Of a stretch of DNA of 64,000 nucleotides, positions 14,780 to 59,700 are shown one piece after another (the first letter of the stretch is position 1; each line of letters starts with the position of its first letter). Origin of the DNA: Halobacterium sp. DL1 (GTDB lineage: Archaea; Halobacteriota; Halobacteria; Halobacteriales; Halobacteriaceae); contig CP007061.1 in the NCBI GenBank assembly GCA_000230955.3, positions 124,001 through 188,000 of the forward strand, written 5' to 3'. The position numbers and the translations under genes were made by a program. The notes under the pieces were generated by a model. The model searched no databases and was not told the DNA's origin. It was given only the letters and a program-made list of their open reading frames with translations.

Positions 14780-14991
14780 TTCGGTAAAGCCTGTTGGTTT
14801 GACACCGTTCCCGCTGACACAGCTGTTTGTGAAAACTTGACCCTCTCTGCGAGGGTTTCCCCTCCCTCTCTCCATTCTCTTACGTGTGAACGAACGAGTG
14901 CCAGCGTGCTAAACACACTCTCTATATTCAGCACTATCGCAAAAATATATCATCGATAGAGGATTTCAACAGAGCCAACTGGTTCTATAGG

Positions 14992-15066
14992 TCGTGGCTG
15001 CGCGCGCAGCAAAGCGAGCACGGAGCGGAGGGTGGGGAGGTGGGGCCTGGGTCGGTCCGGCACGTA
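14992..15066. repeat. Conserved 3' flank, copy 1 (downstream of the OB-fold gene)
   Basis: GTCGTGGCTGCGCGCGCAGC followed by AGCGAGCACGGAGCGG and a G-rich GGGTGGGG run recurs at 57899-57970, downstream of TFB-2. The two stretches are close matches apart from a short insertion after GCAGC, though the genes they follow are unrelated. Contains the palindrome GCTGCGCGCGCAGC. Confidence 0.7.
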
Positions 15067-15092
15067 GCAAAAAAGAAGGGTGGGACGACCGG

Positions 15093-15989
15093 CTACTCCC
15101 ACCACCGACCGCGTTCGGGGAAATTCACCGTAGTCCAGCCGGTCAGAGCCACCGAGACGCGCCCGTTGTACCAGTTCTTCGCCGCTCCACGAATACGAAC
15201 GTGCTCTCCCTCCTCAATCCAGGGTTGGTCGCTCGCAACCCAACTGGTGAACTTCGTTTTTCCGCTCTCGTCTTCGATGAGCCCCACTTGAGAAATGGCT
15301 GAACTCGACGGCTCCCACAACTGCGTCACAGTACCTTCGATGCTCACCTCTTTGCGATTGACGTTCTCGAGATTCCCGATGGGAACCACCGTCCCAGGAG
15401 CCGTCTGCAACTCCTCGAACACCCCGACGACCGCGCTCATCATGTCTTTCCCACCGACGACGGCTTCACCCAGCCGCCGGCCAATCGCTGCTCGCGACCA
15501 GCCATCCAGCTTCTCCGCCAGCCGCATCGACTGTGTGTTCACCGCCGCCAACTGCTCCTGGGTGAGTTCTGCACGAGGATCGTCCCGCTCTGGGTCCGTC
15601 CACGGGTTCACGCTCGCTGCCCGCTTCTGGAACTCTACACGCCGCTCAGCGCTCCGCTTCGCCGCGATATCTCGCGTCCGCTTCTCCCGACCGTCTTGCG
15701 TCCCCAGTTCGGCCTGGGCACTGATGCGCTCCAGCTCGGCCTCTCGTGCCTGGATGCGCTCTTCCTGTTCGAGAGTTTTCCCGAACAGGTGATCCGGGCC
15801 TTCCTCGACCCGCGCATCTGGGTGGTTGGAATCGACCTTCGCCTGCACCTCCATTTGTACCGTCGCCTGGAACTCCGGCGTCTCATCGACGACCTCGAAT
15901 CCATCCTCGTCGACCTCGACTTCATCGTGTTTCTCGAAAGCCTGTTCATCGACCGAAACTACATCACTGGTGACGTTCTTACTTGACAT
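15093..15989 (-). CDS. OB-fold (RPA-like) single-stranded DNA-binding protein
   Basis: 298 residues from ATG 15989 (MSSKNVTSDVVSVDEQAFEK). The upstream frame is open but consists of the structured leader, so it was excluded. The N-terminal 60 residues are acidic. A helical middle part is rich in E/R/Q (EQEERIQAREAELERISAQA). After about residue 195 comes an OB fold: VSIEGTVTQLWEPSSSAISQ, VGLIEDESGKTKFTSWVASD, then EGEHVRIRGAAKNWYNGRVS. This layout is the RPA-like protein common on haloarchaeal plasmids. It probably binds ssDNA during replication or transfer. It sits in the same 5' and 3' non-coding framework as TFB-2. Confidence 0.75.
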   Translation of the reverse strand: MSSKNVTSDVVSVDEQAFEKHDEVEVDEDGFEVVDETPEFQATVQMEVQAKVDSNHPDARVEEGPDHLFGKTLEQEERIQAREAELERISAQAELGTQDGREKRTRDIAAKRSAERRVEFQKRAASVNPWTDPERDDPRAELTQEQLAAVNTQSMRLAEKLDGWSRAAIGRRLGEAVVGGKDMMSAVVGVFEELQTAPGTVVPIGNLENVNRKEVSIEGTVTQLWEPSSSAISQVGLIEDESGKTKFTSWVASDQPWIEEGEHVRIRGAAKNWYNGRVSVALTGWTTVNFPERGRWWE

Positions 15990-16691
15990 TGGAACTTTCA
16001 CTTGTTCCTGAAGGCGCTTAGCGCCCGACACCGCGATGCTACAACATCGCGGATTTCTCAACGACCACAACGACCAATAGAACCATCTGTGCGCTCTCGC
16101 TCGCGCCTTCGTGAGCGCCCCCTGGGCGCGAGCGAGAGCGCGCCTCAGGAGGCCACTCAACCAGAACCGCGCGCCGACCCGCCCGGAGTGAGCGTCCAGC
16201 GGGATATGCCCGCTCGTGTCCGGCCCGATGTGCGGGATCGTGTCCAGGGCGACTGTCGCCGAGAACGCGCGCCGCGGTGTGGCGCGCGACAGCGCAGGCG
16301 GCACCAAGCGCTGGAACGCGAAAGCCCGCAAGGGGCGCAACCGACGGGGATACCCGCTGGCGTCGAGGGCACATCCATTTTAGCCCGGAACGGGCGCGGG
16401 CAGTGCGGAGAGCGCCCGCACGCCCGGAATGGTCGGTCGCGAGCGAGCGGAGGGCGGAAGCGGCGAGCGGGGCGTGCCGTAACAAAAGAACCCGTTCAAC
16501 CGAGCTCGACGCTCAGTGACACAACCGAAATCCTGGTGGACTCAGAAAGGGCGAGGCCGCCTCGGTCACCGGGAGACTGCGTCTCCCGAGCACACGGCGC
16601 AAAGCGCCGTGAACGTCTCCCGACCCGGCAAGCACCGGAGGCACGAGGAGCGCAGCGTGGGGCGCGGGATGCCGAGCGGCCGAGGGCTTTC
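15990..16691 (-). ncRNA. Long structured non-coding region, copy 1 (leader or ncRNA)
   Basis: No convincing ORF. It aligns over nearly its whole length with 59091-59700. Landmarks in order: hairpin CCGCGATG ctacaa CATCGCGG (16031-16052); a 17-bp stem (16091-16107 with 16125-16141); the stem GCGCGCC/GGCGCGC around GCGGTGT near 16267-16287; AACGCGAAAGCCCGC; TAGCCCGGAACGGGCG; GCCCGGAATGGTCGGTCGCG; GGACTCAGAAAGGGCGA; GGCCGAGGGCTTTC. Several stems differ in sequence between copies but stay paired. The strand is assumed from the downstream leftward gene. Compared with copy 2 it carries about 90 extra nt near 16560-16660 made largely of two short hairpins. Confidence 0.6.
16570..16611. repeat. Two short hairpins with 8-bp stems and 3-nt loops
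   Basis: CGGGAGAC TGC GTCTCCCG (16570-16588) and CACGGCGC AAA GCGCCGTG (16593-16611). Both are absent from the homologous region at 59 kb, so they look inserted. Hairpins of the same shape but different sequence occur at 18197-18239 and 18763-18830. Confidence 0.75.
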
Positions 16692-16713: not shown

Positions 16714-17244
16714 TTAGATCAGCCGCATCGAGTCGCCGGGATCGTCGCCGATAATGTCCGCTAATCCGTAGACTGTGATCGCGTCCGTGTAGCCCTGCGC
16801 TCGAACGGCGTTCTCGATGCCCTTCCTGGCGGGCTGGTCGTCAGTAAGAACGACAACACCCGTTGTCGAGCGGTCTCTCAGATACTGAATGGCCAGCCCC
16901 GCGAGAATCGCATCGGTCTTTTCGACCTCGTGTTCGGCTTGGTCGGTTTCGTTGGCGATGGTCCGTCTGGCGATATCACTCGCCGCGACAGCATCACCAT
17001 CCGTCGGTGATGGGGCATCGATGATTTCGGCCCATCCCTCGTCGAGCGCCGTCCGGACACGATCCGTCTCTGGGCCCCCGAGTTCACCGATCACACGCCG
17101 GGGGAGTTTGCAGACGACGCCGGCGTGCTGGATGGCCCGCCGAAACCGTTGGTACTGCGGATTCGAGGGGCGGCCAATCGCGTAGAAGATATTTGCGTCG
17201 ACGAGGACGTCCTGCTCAGCAGTTAATGGCGTGTCTCGACCCAT
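16714..17244 (-). CDS. PIN-domain ribonuclease, putative toxin
   Basis: 176 residues. PIN acidic residues are in VLVDANIFYAIG (first Asp), in the GELGG region and EKTDAILAGLA (middle acidic cluster), and in VVVLTDDQPARKG (last Asp pair). PIN toxins cut RNA with Mg ions. It is preceded, 9 nt away, by an HTH gene rather than an AbrB- or RHH-type antitoxin, so the pair is VapBC-like but with a large winged-helix partner. It is the last gene before the structured leader region. Confidence 0.8.
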   Translation of the reverse strand: MGRDTPLTAEQDVLVDANIFYAIGRPSNPQYQRFRRAIQHAGVVCKLPRRVIGELGGPETDRVRTALDEGWAEIIDAPSPTDGDAVAASDIARRTIANETDQAEHEVEKTDAILAGLAIQYLRDRSTTGVVVLTDDQPARKGIENAVRAQGYTDAITVYGLADIIGDDPGDSMRLI

Positions 17245-57195: not shown

Positions 57196-57795
57196 TTAGC
57201 TTTCACTGAGCGGCGTAGGAATCTCGACCGCGGTAAAGCGAGCAACCGCTCCACAACCCACACACTCGTCGACGAACGCGCAAACCCGAAGCGAGGTTTC
57301 TAACTCGCGGATCTCTCCGCACACGGAGCACTCGTATGAGGTACGATACCGGACCTGCGGATGGTGGTTTTGCTGCCGTATGTGGGGGTTCGACGTCGCT
57401 TTCTTCTTGTCGTAAGACGTCGTCGGTGAGTTGTCCTGATTCGTCACGGGCTGGTCGTGACCGAGCTGCCAAGCCGAATCGGGAAGCGTGTCGTAGATGT
57501 GATCTGATTCACTGGCATCGGCATCGAAGGCAGCGGGCTCAGCTGGAAAGTCTGCATCATCGGGTGGGTGATTATCGACAGAGGCACGGTCGTCAAGTGA
57601 CGCGTCTCGGGAAGTTGGTGGGGTCGTCCGTGCCGATGCACCGAGTTCAACGGCCTCCGCCTGCTCGTGGAGTTCGCCATCGATTGCTGCCGCCAGATTG
57701 GCAAGCGGCTCGGAGATATCAGACTCTCCGTGTTTCTCAACGGCGTTCTCGAACAACCATTCTCGGAGAGTCGCTGCAGTTTCTCTATCGACCAT
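57196..57795 (-). CDS. Zinc-ribbon protein of unknown function
   Basis: 199 residues from ATG 57795 (MVDRETAATLREWLFENAVE). The N-terminal helices are followed by about 90 disordered residues (SDHIYDTLPDSAWQLGHDQP) and a C-terminal ribbon with CSVC at about 152-155 and CVGC at about 177-180. It converges on the histone-fold gene with 14 nt between stops. Function unknown; possibly nucleic-acid or protein binding. Confidence 0.55.
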   Translation of the reverse strand: MVDRETAATLREWLFENAVEKHGESDISEPLANLAAAIDGELHEQAEAVELGASARTTPPTSRDASLDDRASVDNHPPDDADFPAEPAAFDADASESDHIYDTLPDSAWQLGHDQPVTNQDNSPTTSYDKKKATSNPHIRQQNHHPQVRYRTSYECSVCGEIRELETSLRVCAFVDECVGCGAVARFTAVEIPTPLSES

Positions 57796-57898
57796 GAACG
57801 ACGGGATGGAATTCATTCAGTTCTCACTCCGTCCCTCTTGGACGCGACAAACCACACATCGTCTCCCTCCCCGTTTACGAGACTCCTGACTGGCGTCA

Positions 57899-57970
57899 AT
57901 GAGGTTGTGGCTGCGCGCGCAGCGACCGCAGGGAGCGAGCACGGAGCGGTGGGTGGGGTGGAGGGGCGTT
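57899..57970. repeat. Conserved 3' flank, copy 2 (downstream of TFB-2)
   Basis: GGTTGTGGCTGCGCGCGCAGC, AGCGAGCACGGAGCGG and GGGTGGGG in the same order as at 14992-15066. It lies just past the 3' end of TFB-2. Confidence 0.7.
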
Positions 57971-58010
57971 CACGGGCGGTGGTCGCCAGTAAAAACGGGG
58001 AGAGCCCCGC

Positions 58011-59090
58011 TCAGCGCAGGGTGTTTCGCTCTTCCTCGAGGCCGACACCCGGGTTATCGGTGCCGTGTTCGTCCTTGTAGGCGTTGACGAGTTCACGACT
58101 GTACCTCGCGATCCGATTTTGGGACGTCGGCACGACTGTGCTTGACGCCTCGGCGACCTGCCCCTGGGTGAGATGCTTGCTCGGGAGCAGGCGATCCGCC
58201 GCGTACAGCGCCGACGCCGCGACGGTCAGCCGTGGCGTCCCCGGCCCGACCGGCACCTGATCGCCAAGTCTCATCAGGTGTTGGGCCAGCCGCCACGTCC
58301 GCACGACGCGCGCCCCGGGGATCGCGTCATTATCGAGCGCGTCGACGACCTCCATCACGGCATTCGGCCTGATGAGTGGTGCATCGAACCCACATTCACA
58401 CCGAATCTTCCGCGCTGCAGCACACACCCGCTCGTGGGGCGCTTTCGTGTACATCGCGACCGCGACATCGATCTCGTCGCGATTGATGGGAGACGCTCGT
58501 GCCGCGACTAGGACGGCGCCGCCAGCGAGTGCTTCCCAGGCCATCCGCCCGCCCGGAAGCCGCGCTTCCGAAGCGCTCCGGAGGTATCTCGCCGCCATCT
58601 TGATGACGTAGTCCGGCAGGTCCAGATTGCCACCGATCATCTCGATGTCCCGAAGCCCCTCGTTGAGGCGCTTCGTCCGCTTGCGCTTCTCGCCGAACTG
58701 ATAGCGCCTGTGCCACTTCCGGAGACGCTGGAACTTCTTCCACTGCTCATTGCTCAGGGGATTACCGTGGCCGTCAGTCGACTTCCCAATCTTCGTGTGA
58801 AGGCCATTGTCCGTCCGCAGTGGGTCCACCGTCTCGATGCTCTGATCGGCGTTCCCAATCAGGCCCAGATCGTTCAGCGTCGGGCTCAGGTCGACCCACT
58901 CGTCGGCGACAACCAACCCGCAATCCCTGCAGAACGACTCCTCGTCTGCAGTAATCACCTGGCCCTCACACTCGGGACAGGCCGACCGTCCCGACGGCTC
59001 GCGCTCAACTGTAGTCTTTCGACTACGCTGCTCAGTAGTTGTAGTCTGTACATCCGAAACCGTCTTTTCGCTCGCGTAGTTACTTGACAT
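58011..59090 (-). CDS. tfb: Divergent transcription initiation factor IIB (TFB-2)
   Basis: 359 residues, MSSNYASEKTVSDVQTTTTE. Zn ribbon with Cys38, Cys41, Cys54 and Cys57 (CPEC, CRDC). The B-finger region is unusual: it lacks the GPEWRAF-type sequence and reads ADEWVDLSPTLNDLGLIGN, though GLHTKIGKSTDGHGNPLS is kept. Two cyclin repeats follow (AWEALAGGAVLVAARASPIN and TVAASALYAADRLLPSKHLT). Probably a specialised TFB with altered promoter or polymerase contacts. Its 5' and 3' flanks are shared with the OB-fold gene at 15093. Confidence 0.88.
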   Translation of the reverse strand: MSSNYASEKTVSDVQTTTTEQRSRKTTVEREPSGRSACPECEGQVITADEESFCRDCGLVVADEWVDLSPTLNDLGLIGNADQSIETVDPLRTDNGLHTKIGKSTDGHGNPLSNEQWKKFQRLRKWHRRYQFGEKRKRTKRLNEGLRDIEMIGGNLDLPDYVIKMAARYLRSASEARLPGGRMAWEALAGGAVLVAARASPINRDEIDVAVAMYTKAPHERVCAAARKIRCECGFDAPLIRPNAVMEVVDALDNDAIPGARVVRTWRLAQHLMRLGDQVPVGPGTPRLTVAASALYAADRLLPSKHLTQGQVAEASSTVVPTSQNRIARYSRELVNAYKDEHGTDNPGVGLEEERNTLR

Positions 59091-59700
59091 TGGTGTGTTA
59101 GCACCTGAAGGCGCTCACCACCGCGCCCGACCCCCCGTGTTCCTGCACGGGATTTCCTCGACGTCGACGACCGACCAGTCACGACTGCGCGCTCTCGCTC
59201 GCGCCTTCGCGAGCGCCCTGTGGGCGCGAGCGAGAGCGCGCCCAAGGAAGGCCACCCAACCAGCACCGCGCGCCGAACCGCCCGGAGCAAGCGGCCAGCT
59301 TTAAGCCGTTTCTCGCGTCCGGCCCGGACTGCGGGTTCGTGTCCAGAGCGACGGTCGTGAGCACGGCGAGCCGTGGTGTGGCTCGCCGCGCGGAACGGCC
59401 CAAAGCGCTGGAACGCGAAAGCCCGCGAGGGGCGCAACCGAAAACGCGCTTAATGCTGGCGTCGAGACCAGATTCACTTTAGCCCGGAACGGGCGCTCGC
59501 GGTGCGGAGAGCGCCCGCACGCCCGGAATGGTCGGTCGCGAGCGATGCGGAGGGCGGAATGCGGCGCGCGGTGCGTGCCGTCACGAACCATCCAGCCAAC
59601 TGATGTCGACGCTCGCCGCGCCAGCCGCCATCCTGGCGGACTCAGAAAGGGCGAAGCCGTCTCGCGTGGGTCGCGGGATGCCAAACGGCCGAGGGCTTTC
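59091..59700 (-). ncRNA. Long structured non-coding region, copy 2 (leader or ncRNA)
   Basis: Homologous to 15990-16691. Same order of elements: hairpin CCCGTG ttcctg CACGGG near 59134-59151 before GATTTC; a 19-bp stem (59187-59205 with 59223-59241); the stem GGCGAGCC/GGCTCGCC around GTGGTGT near 59366-59387; AACGCGAAAGCCCGC; TAGCCCGGAACGGGCG; GCCCGGAATGGTCGGTCGCG; GGACTCAGAAAGGGCGA; GGCCGAGGGCTTTC at the far end (59687-59700). No ORF. Strand assumed from the leftward TFB-2 gene; a rightward gene begins 8 nt beyond. Confidence 0.6.

Follow-up and report, generated by a model that had tools for sequence, protein, structure and literature searches.

The 64,000-nucleotide stretch of Halobacterium sp. 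DL1 analysed here (the window) holds two minus-strand loci, copies A and B, in which different genes are enclosed by a common 5' and 3' framework. In copy A, a structured 5' element (15990-16691), made up of a core (about 15990-16481) and a 5' domain (about 16482-16691), lies upstream of a 298-aa OB-fold gene of the Rfa5/Rfa6 (RPA/SSB-like) family (15093-15989), and includes both a long hairpin (GCGCTCTCGCTCGCGCC..GGCGCGAGCGAGAGCGC, 16091-16143; helices 15-16, 98-100% paired) and a hairpin directly before the start codon (15990-16009). The OB stop codon is followed by a 3' module (14989-15092) that comprises a T-run (about 15069-15074), a C-rich tract and a GC palindrome and ends ..CCACGACCT. 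In copy B, the 5' structured element (59091-59700) precedes a 359-aa TFB (TFIIB-like) gene (58011-59090), after whose stop codon comes a 3' module (57902-58010) with the same parts (T-run at about 57991-57995), ending ..CCACAACCT. A blastn comparison of the two minus-strand regions aligned the 5' elements, which measure about 0.5-0.7 kb, at 79.8% identity over 574 bp (E 4e-128), with an additional common block of 37 bp (92%), and the 3' pieces (14989-15046 in A, 57902-57967 in B) at 80.3% over 66 bp (E 3e-13). This confirmed the claim of the first-pass annotation that two different ORFs, OB-fold and TFB, sit inside common flanks, and recovered the 3' piece close to the positions given there (14992-15066 and 57899-57970). 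On its opposite strand the 3' module (14989-15046, 57902-57967) is rich in G (GGGTGGGGAGGTGGGG-like), which may represent a four-stranded DNA motif lying past the terminator.

Upstream of copy A, a co-directional gene (16714-17244, minus strand; PIN-like by eye, with no Pfam match) stops 22 bp short of the element, so that this copy is probably read from an upstream promoter. Downstream of the TFB gene of copy B lies a gene (57196-57816, minus strand) that regularly follows element-linked TFBs, the same cluster being found in 5 of 82 layouts. The genome as a whole contains four copies of the element, all on one 315.6-kb contig: copy A (C2:139987-140720), copy B (C2:183104-183700), a third that is 93% identical to A (C2:281447-282073) and a fourth (C2:111811-112206), the last two each preceding an OB gene.

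A class-wide search detected the element in 170 of 292 haloarchaeal genomes and 62 of 77 genera, and blastn against 72,556 plasmid records and 50,697 phage records placed it in 162 of the former, at 253 places, and in none of the latter. There were up to six matches per genome, and some copies lay on chromosome-sized contigs. Known plasmids that carry it include pHS3 of Halobacterium salinarum R1, pNRC100 and pNRC200 of strain NRC-1, pNG600 of Haloarcula marismortui and pHME132 of Haloferax mediterranei, whose annotations leave it blank, ahead of a 'DNA-binding', 'OB-fold' or hypothetical protein. Rfam 15 gave no gathering match in the 64-kb window, and across five element loci its only match, to sR45, was at chance level, fell short of the gathering threshold and lay outside the element. 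Searches of PMC full text turned up no account of it, and term searches of PMC10134880 and PMC12558985 gave no relevant passage. A putative control region present in over half of the sampled genomes, among them that of the model organism Halobacterium salinarum, appears to have gone undescribed. Five genomes, each with a different genus code (L045-L049), share identical element cores and near-identical layouts, a pattern we read as recent spread of related plasmids.

To define the partner genes, we assembled 120 fetched genome loci, 6 annotated plasmid regions, two stretches of the DL1 genome itself and the window, and retained 140 of 157 merged element matches (score of at least 90; 17 fell below). 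As the loci were drawn mostly from the best class-wide matches, strongly diverged copies are under-sampled. The next gene was OB in 109 and TFB in 11 of the 121 copies with an intact 3' end, the one remaining copy running off its stretch; a further 19 copies were truncated, four of them adjoining a TnpB gene. In all 120 intact copies with enough sequence an ORF begins where the element ends, at zero distance from the ATG and in the same orientation. The association also holds in reverse. The element stands at the ORF start in 76 of 80 OB genes found by protein alone, and three of the other four keep its last hairpins (by eye). TFBs of the element-linked family are uncommon, with 15 genes in 14 of 194 genomes. 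Judged by coordinates, each of the 15 is preceded by the element or by its last part; three of them show only the last 150-170 nt, one of these at a contig end. The flanks are therefore not confined to one of the two genes; nor did any of the further unrelated genes considered in the first-pass annotation turn up, the sample holding exactly two families. Since both are stably tied to the framework, the locus is better described as a two-gene exchange around a common control region than as an open-ended cargo slot.

The OB product matches PF01336 below the curated cut-off (E 3.9e-4) and is 73-85% identical, full-length over 298 aa, to plasmid genes of H. salinarum R1 and NRC-1; the TFB matches PF00382 with 32.5 bits against a cut-off of 23.6 (E 9e-8), and the element-linked TFB genes belong to a single family, with 50-85% identity to copy B. 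Halobacterium Rfa5/Rfa6 and Haloferax HVO_A0019, HVO_A0374 and HVO_A0409 belong to the same OB family, with 71-88% identity between the two species compared, and Rfa5/Rfa6 deletion mutants are sensitive to mitomycin C (PMC5924565); the passages of that paper on Rfa5/Rfa6 do not treat the upstream element. In several loci (L045-L049, L052, L053, L127 and others) a second TFB of about 308 aa follows OB as a separate gene, in the conserved order OB, TFB, zinc-ribbon protein. In 8 of 82 layouts (L012, L058, L068, L072, L073, L078, L081, L093) OB is followed, directly or at a short distance, by a zinc-finger plus HNH-like protein (by eye), possibly a homing-type nuclease.

The first-pass annotation had recognized the conservation of the 5' framework and overlooked that it is base-paired. 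An RNAalifold consensus from 75 of 82 copies contained many compensatory pairs. Base pairing was then measured in an alignment (A2) holding 45 of the 67 rows of a larger one (A1), mainly rows without large inserts and with some near-duplicates taken out; separately, nine divergent rows of the 67 were dropped from other comparisons. Across these 45 sequences and 111 pairs, 97.2% of cells were paired, compared with 31-48% when the partners were slid. Cells changed on both sides numbered 206, compared with 84.8 +/- 6.7 after shuffling, pairs with both-side changes 19 compared with 12.6, and covariation reached 0.104 compared with 0.038, values equalled in none of 500 shuffles in each case; the number of further pair types did not exceed that in the shuffles (155/500). 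Because much of the covariation comes from two helix haplotypes, the independent events are fewer than the cells. An alignment-independent test with 1000 re-pairings gave the same picture for the helix flanked by CGCCAGC/GCTGG, where arms of 29 distinct versions formed a run of 5.93 with their own partner and a mean of 2.88 when re-paired (maximum 4.21). The hairpin before the ATG varies in stem sequence among copies while keeping its complementarity; over 67 distinct versions, the value is 4.31 for a stem's own arms and at most 3.46 in 1000 re-pairings. That the arms co-vary while re-paired, slid and shuffled controls fail indicates that base pairing is maintained by selection. Chance or low complexity as the source of the pairing is ruled out by the slid and shuffled controls. 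In L324 (pNRC200) and L109 the apical domain is a different one (CCAGCGGGAAAGCGC..CGCTTTCTCCGCTGG) on the same closing helix.

The framework does not end at the start codon. The first 25 codons of the OB gene (15915-15989) and of the TFB gene (59016-59090, MSSNYASEKTVS..) are partly homologous, and in a comparison of the first 75 nt 10 of 11 TFB genes outscored all 220 internal control windows against OB, as did 8 of 11 once the initial 12 nt were excluded. The likeness of the coding parts therefore reaches beyond the MSS start to which it had been thought limited. In 73 non-redundant OB genes, synonymous sites of codons 3-18 are strongly conserved (among genes keeping the residue, GTT in 100%, GAT in 98.6% and GAA in 100%), and the mean share of the top codon is 0.84 over codons 1-20 compared with 0.58-0.69 past codon 80, the last few codons excepted. 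The framework thus extends about 20 codons into the gene, past 'MSS', which suggests homologous recombination. At the other end, the copy A version of the 3' module is matched by 73 of 107 OB copies and all 11 TFB copies, and the end of the module occurs in three versions, each found with both OB and TFB.

How often genes and frameworks have parted was examined in a tree of 118 element cores, in which the TFB-linked elements are scattered and 9 label changes are needed, at least six of them required by branches with good support; as few sufficed in 31 of 500 random labellings. A single clade of TFB-linked elements was rejected (p-AU 1.5e-53), a test whose tree ignores recombination and whose result would be the same if flanks were converted without gene exchange. 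Helix type, 3' type and gene are found in every main combination. Given the scattering and the rejection of a single clade, gene and framework have been re-paired repeatedly, which supports the suggestion of the first-pass annotation that the locus exchanges its gene and makes the exchange recurrent. The pattern is most simply read as frequent recombination between copies within one cell, and polyploid Haloferax is reported to carry out gene conversion efficiently (PMC11276520). Plasmids could in this way reassort genes within a fixed regulatory frame.

We then asked on which strand the structure would be read. Consensus folds are strong for both sense and antisense, and folding energy was discarded as a discriminator because single-sequence energies are equal (antisense lower in 36 of 65). 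One-sided changes read on the mRNA strand gave 51 A-C and 23 G-U cells, and over 137 rows 200 and 113 (by pairs 40 and 30, p 0.28). Unpaired positions are 20% A on the mRNA strand compared with 33% A and 14.5% U on the opposite one, on which the core also folds better (-147 versus -126 kcal/mol). Haloarchaeal RNase P RNA (30 sequences), treated identically as a control, gave a clear sense signal (G-U 67, A-C 13, unpaired A 0.44). With A-C exceeding G-U and A-rich unpaired positions on the opposite strand only, the core seems to lean to the antisense strand; the 3' hairpins are strand-neutral, and the hairpin before the ATG looks sense by eye, its conserved loops being rich in purines. Possibly both strands are transcribed and fold, or the role is at the DNA level. 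A TATA-like sequence seen by eye near the 5' end of some loci was rejected as a sense promoter since it may belong to a divergent gene.

The reading we prefer, which we hold to be about evenly balanced between true and false, is that the element gives a large structured control RNA for plasmid genes, either an mRNA leader, a counter-transcribed RNA or both. It makes up the upstream half of a gene framework conserved on haloarchaeal plasmids, in which an ornate base-paired region ends at the start codon, with conservation continuing about 20 codons in, and in which the 3' module is terminator-like. It would work as RNA, as mRNA leader and/or as an RNA counter-transcribed over the same stretch, and this RNA would control how a plasmid-borne ssDNA-binding protein or TFB is expressed. 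Genes would be exchanged between frameworks by homologous recombination or gene conversion within the common flanks and first codons, as several copies with the same flanks share one cell. The zero distance to the ATG, the fixed orientation, the overlap with the first codons and the T-run after the stop codon fit the control region of one transcription unit, and compensatory base pairing together with a fixed position and orientation before the gene is what a cis-acting structured leader RNA displays. That each of the two families might instead have inherited a single ancient leader and exchanged no genes afterwards, with recombination confined to the flanks, seems highly improbable: the TFB genes are a single related family and flank conversion would scatter the tree by itself, but TFB elements form no clade, the 9 label changes have to be accounted for, 3' module types are shared between genes and the first-codon homology needs at least one junction inside the ORF.

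Somewhat unlikely, though a tentative candidate, is a separate large ncRNA transcribed from the opposite strand, starting near or inside the first OB or TFB codons and running away from the gene. It would account for the A-rich, U-poor unpaired positions, the lower folding energy of the core and the A-C excess described above, for which the RNase P control behaves as expected, and its promoter in the first codons would explain both the synonymous conservation of OB codons 3-18 and why unrelated genes share these codons. However, no TATA-like sequence was seen by eye there and no T-run follows the far end, the strand test by pairs is not significant, the 3' hairpins show no strand preference, and the downstream gene is intact in nearly all copies. 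A role as DNA, in which a cruciform or single-strand structure would serve plasmid replication, partition or the movement of a cassette, is distinctly unlikely: the element's nearly strand-symmetric mismatch pattern, the conserved modules on both sides of the gene and its frequency on plasmids are consistent with such a role, yet it occurs in multiple matches per genome and on chromosome-sized contigs, is tied to one gene start, and keeps no transposase or relaxase with it in the layouts. A mobile cassette or insertion sequence was likewise considered; no transposase or recombinase cluster of its own is kept with the element across 82 layouts, TnpB adjoining just a few copies, and no terminal inverted repeats or target duplications were seen by eye in copy A and L011.

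Under the preferred reading, the element resembles OLE-type large ornate bacterial RNAs in its several hundred nucleotides, elaborate structure, conserved nucleotides and ties to particular genes or mobile DNA; GOLLD and ROOL are further RNAs of this kind. It differs from OLE-type RNAs in lacking an Rfam match, in being archaeal and putative as an RNA, in having two alternative genes, and in stopping exactly at the start codon and overlapping the ORF. Structured leaders and riboswitch-like 5' UTRs likewise lie upstream of a start codon in the same orientation, with a hairpin abutting the ATG and different genes sharing it, but the element is far larger, and its copies also have the first codons and 3' module in common. 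Plasmid counter-transcribed RNAs, such as the RNAI and CopA types, would also place structure on both strands over a plasmid gene leader; the element is much longer, its targets are not known replication initiators and its antisense transcript is putative. According to a published transcriptome (PMC4983044), leaders above 150 nt are infrequent in Haloferax and structured leaders untypical, so that a leader of this size would be exceptional. The element is larger than most known regulatory RNAs, would as a leader run against the view that haloarchaea use few long or structured leaders, and offers a testable control region for plasmid RPA-like genes and a plasmid TFB.

Finally, the element is connected to a clade of TnpB proteins (at least 72% identity to the element-linked protein). 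In this clade the conserved RNA end ..GTGGATGTCGA is directly followed by a constant sequence of 15-16 nt, CCGCTGGNCGCTYGC; the fetched loci show this in 21 distinct contexts. A shorter form of the constant sequence, GCTGGNCGCTYGC, is present in 109 of 118 element cores. In more distantly related TnpBs the sequence at the equivalent position varies. Loci with the constant sequence include L076, L092, L101, L102, L121 and L293-L303, among others, often with TTTT thereafter. The constant sequence looks like a fixed guide against intact elements, and insertion of TnpB into the element, with the 3' flank kept as a guide, would explain it. The four element copies adjoining TnpB end near model position 540. 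TnpB was rejected as a third cargo because its unit is an insertion: it lies beside or within a truncated element, and element sequence is found at its RNA end. A nuclease-dead, TldR-like repressor was also rejected, as the RuvC-II GDL of the fixed-guide clade is found in mobile-looking relatives with varied flanks too. It is unlikely as a whole, although conceivable, that the element represents a new class of large structured RNA, present across most haloarchaeal genera and encoded opposite its partner gene, with a promoter in the first codons, two unrelated genes as interchangeable partners and a fixed-guide TnpB clade specialised on it as a target. A second recurrent break point lies at model position 409, where seven copies stop (L132, L135, L148, L151, L160, L165, L121), several with TnpB downstream.
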